36,300 nucleotides of DNA, from positions 1-36,300 of the forward strand of contig QCLK01000004.1 of assembly GCA_003214615.1 (NCBI GenBank). Direction: 5' to 3'. A model generated the notes under the pieces. It did not search any database and had not been told where the DNA came from. It was given only the letters and a program-made list of their open reading frames with translations. How positions within the stretch are numbered: the first letter of the stretch is position 1; every line of letters begins with the position of its first letter. Made by a program: the position numbers and the translations under genes. Origin of the DNA: Pelagibacteraceae bacterium AG-414-E02 (GTDB taxonomy: Bacteria > Pseudomonadota > Alphaproteobacteria > Pelagibacterales > Pelagibacteraceae). Shown here one piece after another: positions 15,501-34,896 of this stretch.

Positions 15501-16940
15501 TTATGCTGCCTTTTCATTTTTCTTTAGTTTTTTTTCCAAATATTTTTTAATATATGTCGCTGCGTCCCTACCATCCCTTATAGCCCAAACAACCAAAGAT
15601 GCCCCCCTAACTATGTCGCCTGCAGCAAAAACACCGGGCAGGTTTGTTTCCATAGTTCTTAAATTAATCTTTATAGTTCCCCATTCAGACACGGATAAAT
15701 CTTGAGAATTAAATAATTTAGGTAAATTTTCAGGATCAAAACCAAGCGCCTTAATTACCATTTCTGATTTCATTTCAAAATCAGAATTTGGAACTGGTTC
15801 AGGTTTTTTTCTTCCGGAAGAATCAACTTTTCCAAGTTTCATTTTCTCAACTAATACTGAGGAAACTTTTGATTCTCCAATAAATTTTTTAGGATTTGAT
15901 AGCCATATAAATTCAACACCCTCTTCTTCTGCATTATAAACCTCTCTAGCAGAACCTGGCATATTTTCTCTATCTCTTCTATATAAACACTTTACTGATT
16001 TGGCGTTTTGCCGAATTGCAGTTCTAACGCAGTCCATTCCAGTATCTCCTCCACCAATTATAATAACATTTTTATTTTCAGCATTAAGTGTTCCATTATC
16101 AAAATTTTCTACTCTATCTCCCAATCCTTTTCTATTTGAAGCTGTTAAAAAATCCATAGCAGGAAAAATATTTTTTAGATCAGAACCTGGTAAGTCGACT
16201 TCTCGAGGTTTATAAACCCCTGTTGCTATGAGTGTAGCATCATGTTTTTTTCTTAGTTCATCAAGAGAAACATCTTTTCCAATTTCACAACTTTGTATAA
16301 ATTTTACTCCACTTTCTTTTAAAAGATCCGTTCTTCTTTCAACTGCAAATTTTTCTAATTTAAAGTTTGGTATTCCATAAATTAAAAGTCCCCCAGGGCG
16401 ATCATATCGATCATAAATGGTTATTTTGTAACCTAATTTTCTTAACTCTTCTGCGCAAGCTAACCCTGCCGGTCCCGCTCCAACAATACCGATAGATTGA
16501 TTTATTTCTTTGAAAACTTTTATTGGTTTAATCCAGCCCTTTTCCCACGCAGTATCTGTAATGTATTTTTCTACAGATCCTATTGTTACTGTTCCATGTC
16601 CTGCTTTTTCAATTACGCAATTACCTTCACATAAACGATCTTGTGGACAGATGCTTCCACAAATCTCTGGCATATTATTTGTGCTGTGAGCCAAGTCACT
16701 AGCTTCTTGAAGTCTACCTTCAGCGGTTAGTTTTAACCAATCAGGAATATTGTTATGTAAAGGGCAATGAACTTGACAAAAAGGAATACCGCATTGTGAG
16801 CATCGGCTTGACTGTTCTTTAGCCTTTTCATTAATAAACCGATTATAAATTTCTTTAAAATCTTCCTTTCTTGATTCGATGGCCCTCTTTTTGGGCATTT
16901 GCATATTGATATTCACAAATTTCAGCATTTTTTCCGTCAT
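15501..16940 (-). CDS. gltD: Glutamate synthase (NADPH), small subunit
   Basis: 479 residues, typical for GltD. Two N-terminal cysteine clusters (Cys47, 50, 55, 59 and Cys94, 98, 104, 108) can hold the two 4Fe-4S centres. The FAD-binding GAGPAG is at 154-159 and the NADPH-binding GGGDTG at 296-301. A C-terminal GVFAAGDIVRGASLVVWAI segment closes the FAD site. It transfers electrons from NADPH to GltB. The first ATG at 16940 is used; Met5 and Met13 are possible alternatives, since no strong SD decides. gltD-gltB is the reverse of the enteric gltB-gltD order, with a 2-bp gap. Its upstream region is shared with the divergent uppP. Confidence 0.97.
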   Translation of the reverse strand: MTEKMLKFVNINMQMPKKRAIESRKEDFKEIYNRFINEKAKEQSSRCSQCGIPFCQVHCPLHNNIPDWLKLTAEGRLQEASDLAHSTNNMPEICGSICPQDRLCEGNCVIEKAGHGTVTIGSVEKYITDTAWEKGWIKPIKVFKEINQSIGIVGAGPAGLACAEELRKLGYKITIYDRYDRPGGLLIYGIPNFKLEKFAVERRTDLLKESGVKFIQSCEIGKDVSLDELRKKHDATLIATGVYKPREVDLPGSDLKNIFPAMDFLTASNRKGLGDRVENFDNGTLNAENKNVIIIGGGDTGMDCVRTAIRQNAKSVKCLYRRDRENMPGSAREVYNAEEEGVEFIWLSNPKKFIGESKVSSVLVEKMKLGKVDSSGRKKPEPVPNSDFEMKSEMVIKALGFDPENLPKLFNSQDLSVSEWGTIKINLRTMETNLPGVFAAGDIVRGASLVVWAIRDGRDAATYIKKYLEKKLKKNEKAA

Positions 16941-27252: not shown

Positions 27253-28488
27253 CTAAAGTGAATTTGACCAATCTTTTAAAGCAGCCACGCCTGCAACTAT
27301 ATTTGGTGCGTTCTTTTCTAAATCAGCAGTATCTAGTTTTTTACTACCTAAAGTATTCTTCAAAAAATTACCACCATTAAAATCTGTATAGCTTAATCTC
27401 GCTAACATTTTACTGCTGTCTAATCCGAAATCACTTCCAGGAAGTAGGGCAACTCCTGTTTTATTTAAAATATCTTTACACATTTCAGATGATGAAGAAA
27501 AGTTAGCATTATTAAACTCTGGAAATAAATAAAATCCACCCTCAGGTTTTGAAATATTTATCACATTAGATCTTAAATTTTCATAAACATAATTAGCTGT
27601 AAAAGATAATATTTTTTTAACAGAATTTAAATATTTTGAATGATCGACTTTATATGCCTCTATTGCTGCATACTGTATCGGAGCACTTACAGAAGTAAAA
27701 GATTCGCTACAGAGTATTTTTAAACTATTTTTAAAATTTTCAAGTTGGTTTGGTATAGCAAAAAAACCAAGTCTCCAACCACCAGCTCCGCACCATTTGC
27801 TCAAACCAGTGCTAACAATGGTACCTTCAGGATAAAAATTTGAAATTGATTTGTATTGGCCGTTAAAATTAAGTTGAGAATATATCTCGTCAGATAATAT
27901 AATCACTTTATATTTTTTAGCTACCTCGGCAATTTCTTGCAAATTATTACACACTGTGCCGGATGGGTTATTTGGAGAATTTATAAAAAGTAATAAGCTT
28001 TCACTTTTAATATTTTTTATTTTATCTTCTAATTGTTTAGCTGTTGGAAACCAATTAGAATTTGATGAAGTTTGAATCCAGTGAACTTTATTTTTACCAA
28101 TAAGTGCCTGGGGTTGATATGAAACCCAACTAGGAGCAGGAAGCAATACATCTCCCTTAAAAATAATTTGAGTTAGAAGCATCAATTCTTTTGTGCCTGG
28201 TCCAATCACAATATTTTCTTTATTAAAATTATTATTGTTATTTTTGTTTAAATAATTAGCTATGGTAAATCTTAATTCTTCAAGACCTTGCATTGGAAGA
28301 TATCTATGCTTATCGGCATTATTTTTTAAAGCTAAAACTATACTATCAGGAATTGGAAATGGTGACTGGCCAAAACCAAACTTATAAATTTTTTTCCCAC
28401 TTTTTTCTAGTCTGCTGGATTCTTCGTTAATTGCTAAAGTAGCGGAAGGCTTCAATTTGGCTATTTGCTCTTTAATAATTTTATTCAT
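27253..28488 (-). CDS. PLP-dependent aminotransferase, class I/II
   Basis: 411 residues, fold type I. Key PLP residues can be placed: Asn174 in SPNNPSG, Asp200 and Tyr203 in SDEIYSQ, the Schiff-base Lys231 in STGLSKW, and the substrate-carboxylate-type Arg239 in GGWRLGF. It resembles the aspartate/aromatic aminotransferase group; amino acid preference is not readable. Its ATG overlaps the stop of the upstream acetoacetyl-CoA synthetase gene by 8 bases (ATGAATAA), so the two proteins are translationally coupled and probably serve one process. The TAXI-TRAP transporter genes follow on the same strand. Confidence 0.9.
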   Translation of the reverse strand: MNKIIKEQIAKLKPSATLAINEESSRLEKSGKKIYKFGFGQSPFPIPDSIVLALKNNADKHRYLPMQGLEELRFTIANYLNKNNNNNFNKENIVIGPGTKELMLLTQIIFKGDVLLPAPSWVSYQPQALIGKNKVHWIQTSSNSNWFPTAKQLEDKIKNIKSESLLLFINSPNNPSGTVCNNLQEIAEVAKKYKVIILSDEIYSQLNFNGQYKSISNFYPEGTIVSTGLSKWCGAGGWRLGFFAIPNQLENFKNSLKILCSESFTSVSAPIQYAAIEAYKVDHSKYLNSVKKILSFTANYVYENLRSNVINISKPEGGFYLFPEFNNANFSSSSEMCKDILNKTGVALLPGSDFGLDSSKMLARLSYTDFNGGNFLKNTLGSKKLDTADLEKNAPNIVAGVAALKDWSNSL

Positions 28489-30439
28489 TTAATTCTTTAA
28501 TATTTCTAAATTGTTTTAAACTATCTGGATTAGCTAAAGCTTCCAAGTTTTTTATTTTTTCACCCTCCACAGTCTGTTTAACAGCCAACTCCACAAGTTT
28601 TCCATTTTTTGTCTTTGGAACTTCAGAAATGGAAATTATTTTTGAGGGCACGTGCCTGGGAGATGCGTTAATTTTTATTGCATCTTTAATTTTCTTTTTA
28701 ATTTCGTTTGTTAAGTTATAACCCTTATTAAGCACTATAAATAATATTATTCTAATATCATTTTTCCAAGACTGTCCAATGACGATTGACTCTTGTATTT
28801 CTTCCAATTTTTCAACAACACTATATATTTCCGCTGTACCAAGTCGAACTCCTCCTGGATTAAGCGTAGTATCAGATCTTCCAAAAATAACGAAGCCACC
28901 ATTGTTCGTCATTTTGGCAAAATCTCCATGATGCCAAATATTTTTGTATTTTTTAAAATAAGCAGATTTATATTTTTTATCCTTATCATCATTCCAAAAC
29001 TTAACTGGCATTGAAGGAAAAGGTTTTTTGCATACTAATTCTCCTTTTGTATTTCTTATAGATAAACCTTTTTCATCAAATATATCTACGTCCATCCCTA
29101 AGCCTCTGTTTTGAATTTCGCCAGAGTAAACTGGTTGAAATAAATTTCCCAAAACAAAGCATGAAACAATATCAGTACCACCTGAAATAGAAGATAAATG
29201 AACGTCCTTTTTAATATTCTTATAAATATATTTAAATCCATCTTTGGATAAAGGTGAACCAGTTGAGCAAATTGTTCTTAATTTTGAAAGATTGTATTTA
29301 TCTTTTGGAACTACTTTTTCATTAATTAATGTATCTATATATTTTGCGCTAATACCAAATAGAGTTACTTTTTCTTCACTAGCAAATTCAAATAATAAAT
29401 CGTGTTTTTTATACATGGGAAATCCATCAAAAAGTAAAATTGTTGCTCCTGATGAAAGAGCTCCAACAAGCCAATTCCACATCATCCATCCGCAGGTTGT
29501 GAAATAGAATACTCGATCATTATCTTTTACATCGGCATGTATTTGTAACTCTTTATTATGCTGAAGCAAAACTCCTCCCGTTCCATGACAAATACATTTT
29601 GGTTTTCCAGTAGTTCCGCTAGAATAAAGAATTGCTAAGGGATCATTAAATTTAGACATTACAAATTTAATTTTGTTTCTTTTTTTGTCAGCAACTAAAT
29701 CGTTCCAATTATATTTATCAACTTTAATATTTTCTTTTTCTTCAATTGCTGTCCCAGGGTAAGGAACTACTACAATTTTTTTTATTGAGGGTATTTTATC
29801 TAAAATTGCAGGTAATCTTTCGATAATATTTATTTTTTTTCCATTATAAAAATATTTATCTCCAATAAATAATATTTTTGGATTAATCTGAGAAAATCTA
29901 TCTATAACACCTAGTGTGCCAAAATCTGGCGAGCATGAAGACCATATTGCTCCCAGAACAGATGTGCTAATATAAGCCGTTACAGTTTCCGGTATATTTG
30001 GTAAATATGCAGCAATTCTATCTCCTTTCTTGATTCCAATTGACTTCATCCAAAATGAAATTTGAGCTACATGTAAATTTAAATCTTTCCAAGATACAAT
30101 TGTTTTATAACCATTTTCACTTTTAAATATTATTGCTGGATCAAAATTATTTTTTTTTAAAATATTTTCTGCATAGTTAAGTTCAGCATCTGGGAAAAAT
30201 TTATTATTTATAAATATATTAGATTCTTTAAATAAAACGTTTCCTAACTTCCCTTTTACTTTAGTGAATTCCCAAATAGATTTCCAGAATTCTGGGGTAT
30301 TATCGACTGACCATTTCCAAATTTTATTAAAATCATTTCCTAAATTAACTTTATATTTTTGTTGAATGAAGTTTGAATAAAAAGTTAAATTTGTTTCTTT
30401 TAACTTCTTATCACTGATTTTCCAAAGATAGCTTTCCAT
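28481..30439 (-). CDS. Acetoacetyl-CoA synthetase
   Basis: 652 residues, the usual length for acetoacetate-CoA ligases. It begins with an ACAS-type N-terminal cap (about 35-95, with TPEFWKSIWEFTKVKG). The ATP-binding P-loop LYSSGTTGKPK is at 271-281, and GGTDIVSCF near 420 is characteristic of the acetoacetyl-CoA synthetase branch. HGDFAKM and FGRSDTTLNPGGVRLG follow in the hinge region, and the adenylation Lys614 sits in KTKNGK. It activates acetoacetate (or a related short 3-oxo acid) with ATP and CoA. It is the first gene of its strand group and is coupled to the aminotransferase gene. Confidence 0.93.
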   Translation of the reverse strand: MESYLWKISDKKLKETNLTFYSNFIQQKYKVNLGNDFNKIWKWSVDNTPEFWKSIWEFTKVKGKLGNVLFKESNIFINNKFFPDAELNYAENILKKNNFDPAIIFKSENGYKTIVSWKDLNLHVAQISFWMKSIGIKKGDRIAAYLPNIPETVTAYISTSVLGAIWSSCSPDFGTLGVIDRFSQINPKILFIGDKYFYNGKKINIIERLPAILDKIPSIKKIVVVPYPGTAIEEKENIKVDKYNWNDLVADKKRNKIKFVMSKFNDPLAILYSSGTTGKPKCICHGTGGVLLQHNKELQIHADVKDNDRVFYFTTCGWMMWNWLVGALSSGATILLFDGFPMYKKHDLLFEFASEEKVTLFGISAKYIDTLINEKVVPKDKYNLSKLRTICSTGSPLSKDGFKYIYKNIKKDVHLSSISGGTDIVSCFVLGNLFQPVYSGEIQNRGLGMDVDIFDEKGLSIRNTKGELVCKKPFPSMPVKFWNDDKDKKYKSAYFKKYKNIWHHGDFAKMTNNGGFVIFGRSDTTLNPGGVRLGTAEIYSVVEKLEEIQESIVIGQSWKNDIRIILFIVLNKGYNLTNEIKKKIKDAIKINASPRHVPSKIISISEVPKTKNGKLVELAVKQTVEGEKIKNLEALANPDSLKQFRNIKELNE

Positions 30440-30512: not shown

Positions 30513-30612
30513 AAGGAGAACTTATATTAGGGTGATTCGGTCACGTTTTAATCATCTTTTGTTCCTAATGGAAATCTAAATGTAGTGCTTCAAAAAAAAT
30601 CAAACACAATTT
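30513..30612 (+). promoter_or_regulatory. Candidate structured leader before the helicase gene
   Basis: Two mutually exclusive hairpins share one segment: GTGA/TCAC (30532-30535 with 30541-30544) or the longer GGTGATT/AATCATC (30531-30537 with 30550-30556, one G-T pair). Both are enclosed by a perfect outer stem ATTAGG/CCTAAT (30526-30531 with 30564-30569), next to GAAC/GTTC (30518-30521 with 30561-30564). An SD-like AGGAG (30514-30518) precedes a 15-codon GTG ORF (30532-30579). I do not recognise a known riboswitch class. Stems are short, so chance folding is possible. Confidence 0.3.
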
Positions 30613-33891: not shown

Positions 33892-34563
33892 ATGACTAAA
33901 AAAAAAAGAGGAAGGAAGAAAAAAGAAAAAGATAAAAAGAAAAAACTAAAAAAAGATATTAAGAATAAGTTGTTGAATAAAACAAAGAGTCTAAGCAAGC
34001 CAAATGAAGATAAAGTACAAATTACAAAAATAAAAAAACAACCTACTGAACCAAAAATATACAATATCGGTGATTATGTTGTTTATCCAAAACATGGTAT
34101 AGGAAAAATTATTGCGGTCGAAAAGGCAAAGATTGGAAATATAGAAATAACTTTTTATAAAGTATTTATTGAAAAAGAAAAATTAACTTTAAGTATACCT
34201 CTAAATCAACAGTCCCATCTAAGGCACGTTTCAAGTATTAATCAAATAAATAAATCAATTAATATCTTGAAAGGTAAACCAAAAATAAAAAGAACCATGT
34301 GGAGTAGAAGAGCTCAAGAATATGACCAAAAAATTAACTCTGGCAAGCTTTATGATTTGGCTGAAGTGGTAAGAGATTTAAATAAAAAAACAGATATTAT
34401 TGCTGATCAATCATACAGTGAAAGGCAACTTTTTGAAAAAGCATATGACAGACTAAAATCTGAAATTCAAATAATTATTGGAGACAAAGCCCAACAAAAA
34501 ATGGATAAGGCCCTTAAACGAGTAAATATTCCTGAACATGAGCATAAGGTAGAGCCTGAATAA
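33892..34563 (+). CDS. CarD/CdnL-family RNA polymerase-binding regulator with lysine-rich N-terminal tail
   Basis: 223 residues. Residues about 57-115 form the CarD RNA-polymerase-interaction domain (YNIGDYVVYPKHGIGKI), and the helical C-terminal DNA-binding part (about 125-215) has MWSRRAQEYDQKINSGKL and YSERQLFEKAYDRL. CarD proteins bind the RNAP beta subunit and stabilise open complexes, notably at rRNA and household promoters. The first ~55 residues are an extra low-complexity Lys-rich tail (KKKRGRKKKEKDKKKKLKK). Usual alphaproteobacterial homologues start near the CarD domain. No in-frame ATG lies closer to the domain, so the tail seems real. The TAA overlaps the T-tract of the opposite-strand terminator. 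Confidence 0.92.
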   Translation: MTKKKRGRKKKEKDKKKKLKKDIKNKLLNKTKSLSKPNEDKVQITKIKKQPTEPKIYNIGDYVVYPKHGIGKIIAVEKAKIGNIEITFYKVFIEKEKLTLSIPLNQQSHLRHVSSINQINKSINILKGKPKIKRTMWSRRAQEYDQKINSGKLYDLAEVVRDLNKKTDIIADQSYSERQLFEKAYDRLKSEIQIIIGDKAQQKMDKALKRVNIPEHEHKVEPE

Positions 34564-34594
34564 AAACGCCCCCCTTCATAAATAAAGGAGGGCG
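34562..34594 (-). terminator. Intrinsic terminator of the small basic peptide gene
   Basis: On the minus strand a 10-bp stem with one mismatch (CGCCCTCCTT against AAGGGGGGCG) and an 8-nt loop is followed at once by TTTTT (34566-34562). It lies 23 bp after the stop of the 21-codon gene. On the plus strand the same hairpin follows the carD stop but has no T-tract, so it serves the minus strand best. Confidence 0.82.
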
Positions 34595-34617
34595 CAAATC
34601 ATTAAAAAAGGTCTTAT

Positions 34618-34683
34618 TTATCTTCTTCTTCTTCTTTTTTTAGCTTTTTTCTTACCTTTTTTCTTTTTTCTACGTTTAGCCAT
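34618..34683 (-). CDS. 21-residue polycationic peptide (Lys/Arg-rich)
   Basis: ATG at 34683, TAA at 34620-34618. Of 21 residues, 10 are Lys and 7 Arg; the rest are Met1, Ala2, Gly10 and Ala14. The order is Met-Ala, a KRRKKKK block, Gly, KKK, Ala, KK and a C-terminal run of five Arg (all AGA codons). An SD (AGGGAG) lies 6 nt before the ATG, an intrinsic terminator 23 bp downstream, and a perfect TTGACA upstream, so it has the parts of an independent transcription unit. Such a peptide should bind nucleic acid; its size and composition recall eukaryotic ribosomal protein eL41, without claimed homology. Low-complexity A/G-rich DNA could mimic this, but the signals argue for a gene. Confidence 0.65.
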   Translation of the reverse strand: MAKRRKKKKGKKKAKKRRRRR

Positions 34684-34896
34684 TGTCAGCTCCCTTTTTG
34701 TTTTAATTAAAACAAATCATTAATATGATTCGCTTGTATTTTTAAGCTTTATTGTTTTTTTTCCCGATGTCAAACAGAAATGTTAACCAATTTTAAAAAA
34801 CTAATTTAAAAAAAAATAATTTTTTTCATATATTAAAAACACTAGCAATAACAATGTTTTTTAACATTATTTATAATTTAAATTTATTTAATTTAA
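34684..34896 (-). promoter_or_regulatory. Promoter and leader region of the small basic peptide gene
   Basis: On the minus strand a perfect -35 TTGACA (34773-34768) is followed after 16 nt by a poor -10 (TAAAGC, 34751-34746), giving a leader of about 55 nt. The leader contains a 14-bp palindrome GTTTTAATTAAAAC (34713-34700), a 6-bp AATCAT/ATGATT hairpin and the SD AGGGAG. The rest, up to the end of the acyl-CoA synthetase gene, is featureless A+T-rich DNA. Confidence 0.4.

Follow-up and report, generated by a model that had tools for sequence, protein, structure and literature searches.

A polybasic micro-gene convergent to carD in the SAR11 order: a candidate H1-tail-like nucleoid polycation

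A very short gene encoding an almost entirely cationic peptide lies convergent to carD throughout the SAR11 order. The best explanation, to which we assign a probability of roughly 0.6, is that its product is an order-wide, minimal nucleoid polycation resembling a histone H1 tail and made in step with DNA replication. That the gene is coding is nearly certain; its function is read from sequence, with about that same rough probability.

The polybasic reading frame and its conservation

The window (the whole stretch of DNA analysed, 36,300 nucleotides) contains the following features around the 3′ end of carD.

33892..34563, plus strand: carD, with domains CarD_TRCF_RID and CarD_C; convergent neighbour and synteny anchor
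34561..34595, minus strand: intrinsic terminator, stem 34566-34595 plus T tract
34618..34683, minus strand: 21-residue reading frame, stop codon included in the coordinates, encoding MAKRRKKKKGKKKAKKRRRRR
34690..34694, minus strand: Shine-Dalgarno sequence GGGAG, 6 nt 5′ of the ATG
34710..34735, minus strand: predicted 5′ leader hairpin, 11 pairs, loop of 4
34726..34732, minus strand: CGAATCA (complement of TGATTCG), a GANTC, i.e. CcrM-type, site at predicted position about +5
34768..34773, minus strand: perfect -35 hexamer TTGACA

The peptide MAKRRKKKKGKKKAKKRRRRR contains 10 Lys and 7 Arg (17 of 21 residues, 81%) and no acidic residue. The terminator stem has 13 pairs (7 G-C) and a 4-nt loop, is followed by T's, and touches the stop codon of carD. 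The TTGACA hexamer is missing from the promoter-scan calls because no good -10 element follows it, the candidate being TAAAGC at 34746-34751. Taken by itself, the terminator is at chance level (2 overlapping calls as compared to 1.8 expected from shuffles). The finding stands above chance because the reading frame, the CGAATC element and the terminator hairpin are conserved. As judged by tblastn, the polybasic frame is single-copy in its own genome (1.14 Mb, assembly 87% complete). The named relatives of the window carD are Pelagibacteraceae (SAR11).

The first-pass annotation had proposed a stand-alone polycation gene at this place. This is strongly supported: the Shine-Dalgarno sequence, the TTGACA and the terminator are present and have counterparts in relatives, in which the Shine-Dalgarno sequence reads GGGAG or GGAG. 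That annotation did not include the GANTC site or the 5′ hairpin, nor the occurrence of the gene throughout the order. It had also ascribed a polylysine tail to CarD. A Lys-rich segment does exist, but it forms the N-terminus (MTKKKRGRKKKEKDKKKKLKK) and not a C-terminal tail. A long Lys-rich N-terminus (33892-33990 in the window) is general to CarD in SAR11 and is seen in several other Alphaproteobacteria, in which it is Lys/Ala/Pro-rich and H1-like; its length is very variable.

The 3′ side of carD was read in 90 genomes of the order and at 80 named loci, two sets that may share species. A frame convergent to carD was observed at 170/170 loci. It is intact at 163; at the other 7, the contig ends inside the frame, 66-134 bases beyond the carD stop. 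The product is 20-50 residues long in the window's family (144 members, 64 distinct), the 21-residue window copy being near the minimum, and 40-99 residues long in the sister family (19 members, 12 distinct). In the window's family, composition is 51% K, 26% R and 15% A, with neither D nor E. A terminator-like hairpin follows the frame in 163/163 relatives. When the intact relatives were searched for a kept terminator with a broken frame, as had been suggested, 0 broken frames were found among the 163. Length differences between members always amount to whole codons, and the start codon and Shine-Dalgarno sequence are conserved.

The tblastn survey recommended earlier gave only a partial answer, recovering the gene in 3/147 order genomes, whereas synteny anchored on carD recovered it at every complete locus. 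We ascribe this artefact to the low complexity of the protein; polybasic micro-proteins evade standard searches in this way. Similarly, a class-wide profile search returned 0 matches and missed the family's own members too, profile methods being blind to such sequences. No comparable convergent gene was found around carD in 28 other Alphaproteobacteria. On viral contigs, a search with the leader pattern gave 13 chance-like matches, 0 of them followed by a Lys/Arg frame. Rfam yielded weak matches only, far below gathering scores. No SAR11 lysine-rich or H1-like small protein was found in the open-access literature, and the text of a published structured-RNA screen of P. ubique does not name carD.

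Substitutions were then counted in close pairs, i.e. members differing at 1-3 sites. There were 107 synonymous and 47 non-synonymous changes (69% synonymous, as compared to a neutral mutation expectation of 19-26%), in pairs that share ancestry and are non-independent, with no formal P value attached; the suggested check for synonymous changes was thus borne out. The amino-acid replacements comprised 41 K↔R, 3 A/P and 3 P/S. In these pairs, Lys and Arg were exchanged solely for Lys or Arg, as against a neutral expectation of 13-29% for K/R staying K/R. At the level of sequence comparison, this shows that the gene is under selection to stay all-cationic. Together, the synonymous excess and the conservation of the frame make it nearly certain that the polybasic frame is a real coding gene of the SAR11 order.

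The same data bear on two other readings of the locus. An RNA, non-coding or antisense, that acts on carD and holds the reading frame only by accident would fit the convergent arrangement, the shared terminator region and the conserved 5′ hairpin. This reading was rejected because of the codon evidence, namely the synonymous excess, the frame intact in 163/163, the whole-codon length changes and the conserved start and Shine-Dalgarno sequence, and we regard it as very improbable. A short run of Lys/Arg codons with a terminator behind it might also be an attenuator leader peptide sensing charged Lys/Arg tRNA. That idea fails because no gene in the same direction lies downstream, the terminator abutting the convergent carD. 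Members also reach 99 residues, and it was rejected as scarcely credible.

The promoter layout and its putative link to GcrA, CcrM and HU

Upstream regions were compared in the 157 members for which at least 75 nt of upstream sequence were available. TTGAC is kept in all 157, and CGAATC occurs 38-42 nt past it in 157/157, as compared to 0.6% of shuffled upstream regions. With the transcript start derived from the -35 element (near 34737 in the window), CGAATC is predicted at about position +5, and an extended GANTC motif lies within 40 bp of the predicted start in 157/157. TGATTCG is the extended GcrA activation motif, the broader form of which is YGAKTCK (PMC7987155). In the window, the 7-mer is not enriched (5 occurrences for 3.2 expected). 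Two further CGAATCA sites lie at 30533-30539 (minus strand), some 94 nt upstream of an acyl-CoA-ligase-like gene (28481-30439), and at 16872-16878 (minus strand), within the first part of a glutamate-synthase-like gene (15501-16940).

A hairpin is predicted at CGAATC in nearly all leaders. Its covariation is weak, a two-sided change being seen at 1 pair, and a claim of proven RNA structure for the leader was dropped on this ground. The 3′ arm of the hairpin is fully different between genera while CGAATC is unchanged, and HU leaders with CGAATCA have no hairpin at the site. These observations suggest that CGAATC is under DNA-level rather than hairpin constraint. In some genera, a longer, different leader hairpin is followed by CTCC, which could base-pair with the GGAG of the Shine-Dalgarno sequence; translation may be under control there.

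Both regulators of such sites were searched for in 58 genomes of the order. GcrA scored above cut-off in 53/58, own genome included, and an N6 methylase was found in 54/58. The genome carrying the window encodes GcrA as well as a CcrM-like methylase, the latter with a RAMA domain and adjoining a gene read as rnhB. In cultured Pelagibacter NP1, 99.86% of GANTC sites were reported to be fully methylated, with a lower level near the origin (PMC9516812). A 2021 study predicted few likely GcrA targets among conserved P. ubique orthologues (PMC7987155); a gene so small, if unannotated, would have been overlooked by that prediction. From the motif and its position, we infer a putative link between GcrA and the polybasic gene.

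The pattern TTGAC-N31-39-CGAATCA was searched in the 58 order genomes, types being assigned by reading the matched sequences. It matched 50 times at the polybasic gene, 24 times at a second type and 4 times at scattered places. Matches of the second type immediately precede HU (MNKQDLIAKVADVTGMQKSDSEKAV...), and HU was confirmed in 17/17 sister-family genomes inspected, one of these loci having the variant CGAATCG. Sister-family HU has a TTGAC-39-CGAATC layout, about 30 nt before the start codon, with a CTCC...GGGG leader. It is the sole other recurrent gene with the promoter layout of the polybasic gene. Because this layout is common to them, the two genes are probably under the same control in that family. 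In the window's family, HU is preceded 10-15 nt before its start codon by ACGAATCG in one genus and by ACGATTCG in another, each a GANTC site that fits the extended GcrA motif; the remaining HU genes of this family, which are the majority, show no element within 120 nt upstream. The genome carrying the window has a single PF00216 match (positions 2067-2339 of its contig), which resembles an IHF subunit. Three members are found in most relatives, and the shortage here is probably due to the incomplete assembly.

Proposed function and its main rivals

Sister-family members contain AAPKKKK/KRKPAKKK repeats and read MEELKVIFAKARKKAKKKAAPKKKRKAAKRKPAKKKAAPKKKK...; MAKKRKKAAKKKAPAKKKKVAKKRKPAAKKKAPAKKRKP... 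is the sequence in certain genera of the window's family. AlgP and PhaF have histone H1-like tails of such composition (PMC9239181). A Lys/Ala/Pro-rich, presumably disordered tail of short repeats is present in the sister family and in some genera. The window copy has it in part: it is made of Lys/Arg, apart from a single Gly and an Ala-rich remnant in its interior, and little more than charge is left of the gene in the window genus. Searches of Pfam, NCBIfam, PHROG and PDB gave no meaningful match for the polybasic protein, and neither a curated profile nor an AlgP-type N-terminal domain is present. With no profile match and no domain, the protein is therefore described as working like the H1-like proteins and not as a member of a family; the H1 likeness is one of composition only.

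Among the roles offered by the first-pass annotation, a nucleoid component has gained most, through the H1-type longer orthologues and the promoter element in common with HU. RNA condensation, also offered there, is a less probable alternative. In the proposed mechanism, the peptide would be disordered, would bind DNA by charge alone, and would neutralise or compact the chromosome alongside HU/IHF. CcrM would methylate the GAATC at the transcript start and GcrA would read its methylation state. If so, synthesis would track the replication fork, following its passage, and new positive charge would arrive with new DNA. Extended to the whole order, the statement that each SAR11 cell has a chromatin peptide resembling an H1 tail, domainless and about 20-50 residues long, under replication-coupled methylation control, is more tentative, and we put it slightly below even odds.

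The main rival to the nucleoid reading is a ribosomal or RNA-binding role, i.e. a ribosome- or RNA-associated micro-protein (cf. eL41, bTHX, SRA) that would neutralise rRNA and possibly feed back on its hairpin leader. Size and charge fit, the leader hairpin is conserved, and in some genera CTCC...GGAG pairing might engage the Shine-Dalgarno sequence. However, no ribosomal family is matched, the five-fold length range is unusual in ribosomal proteins, and the promoter layout is common with HU and not with a ribosomal gene. We consider this role unlikely, though a real contender. The polyanion partner might also be other than DNA, the peptide acting as an organiser of polyphosphate granules or as a polyamine-like counter-ion. 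AlgP, which spaces polyphosphate granules (PMC9239181), has a tail of similar composition, but no link to a polyphosphate gene was seen in the window or the leader and an AlgP-like N-terminal domain is absent, leaving this reading improbable.

If the nucleoid reading is true, few known chromatin proteins would be as small as this peptide, and a core gene would have gone unnoticed because it slips past similarity searches, tryptic proteomics and size cut-offs alike. SAR11 bacteria belong to the most abundant bacterial groups and serve as a model of genome streamlining; a gene of about 25 codons that all of them keep should therefore matter. The existence of one gene at 20 and 99 residues in sister families makes the minimum functional length of an H1-like tail testable. 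SAR11 has been reported to lack CtrA (PMC2877005). Were GcrA/CcrM to control the gene, these organisms would have their chromatin charge coupled to DNA replication.

Comparison with known systems

The archaeal and eukaryotic protein eL41 has a fixed length and characteristic Trp/Met/Leu positions. The SAR11 protein is like it in being very basic and about 25 residues long, which had led to their comparison. The parallel is not supported: SAR11 members have no Pfam match, range from 20 to 99 residues and, in the window's family, are without the Trp/Met/Leu positions. PF05162 was unmatched in the Pfam scans; the genome search for eL41 was one without a working positive control.

With SAR11 HU (PF00216), the likeness is one of promoter layout, TTGAC...ACGAATCA being common to sister-family HU and the polybasic gene. 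HU itself is an unrelated folded protein, and most window-family HU genes are without the element.

In Caulobacter, GcrA sites usually lie between or near the -35 and -10 elements. The SAR11 gene resembles Caulobacter GcrA/CcrM promoters (PMC3667746, PMC7987155) in having TGATTCG beside a TTGAC -35, both regulators being encoded in SAR11. It differs in the position of the site, which falls at about +5 of the transcript as predicted, and GcrA binding here is putative.

Finally, the SAR11 protein has in common with chlamydial Hc2 (PMC2848022) and with the tails of Pseudomonas AlgP and PhaF (PMC9239181) a cationic sequence of low complexity, rich in Lys, Ala and Pro, that contains repeat units and varies strongly in length; this is clearest in the sister family and in certain genera of the window's family. 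In contrast to them, the SAR11 protein consists of a tail alone, 20-50 residues long and lacking a folded domain, and the window copy has no Pro, a single Gly and a very Arg-rich C-terminus. The SAR11 gene is also fixed beside carD, and its likeness to these proteins is by composition and not by established homology.
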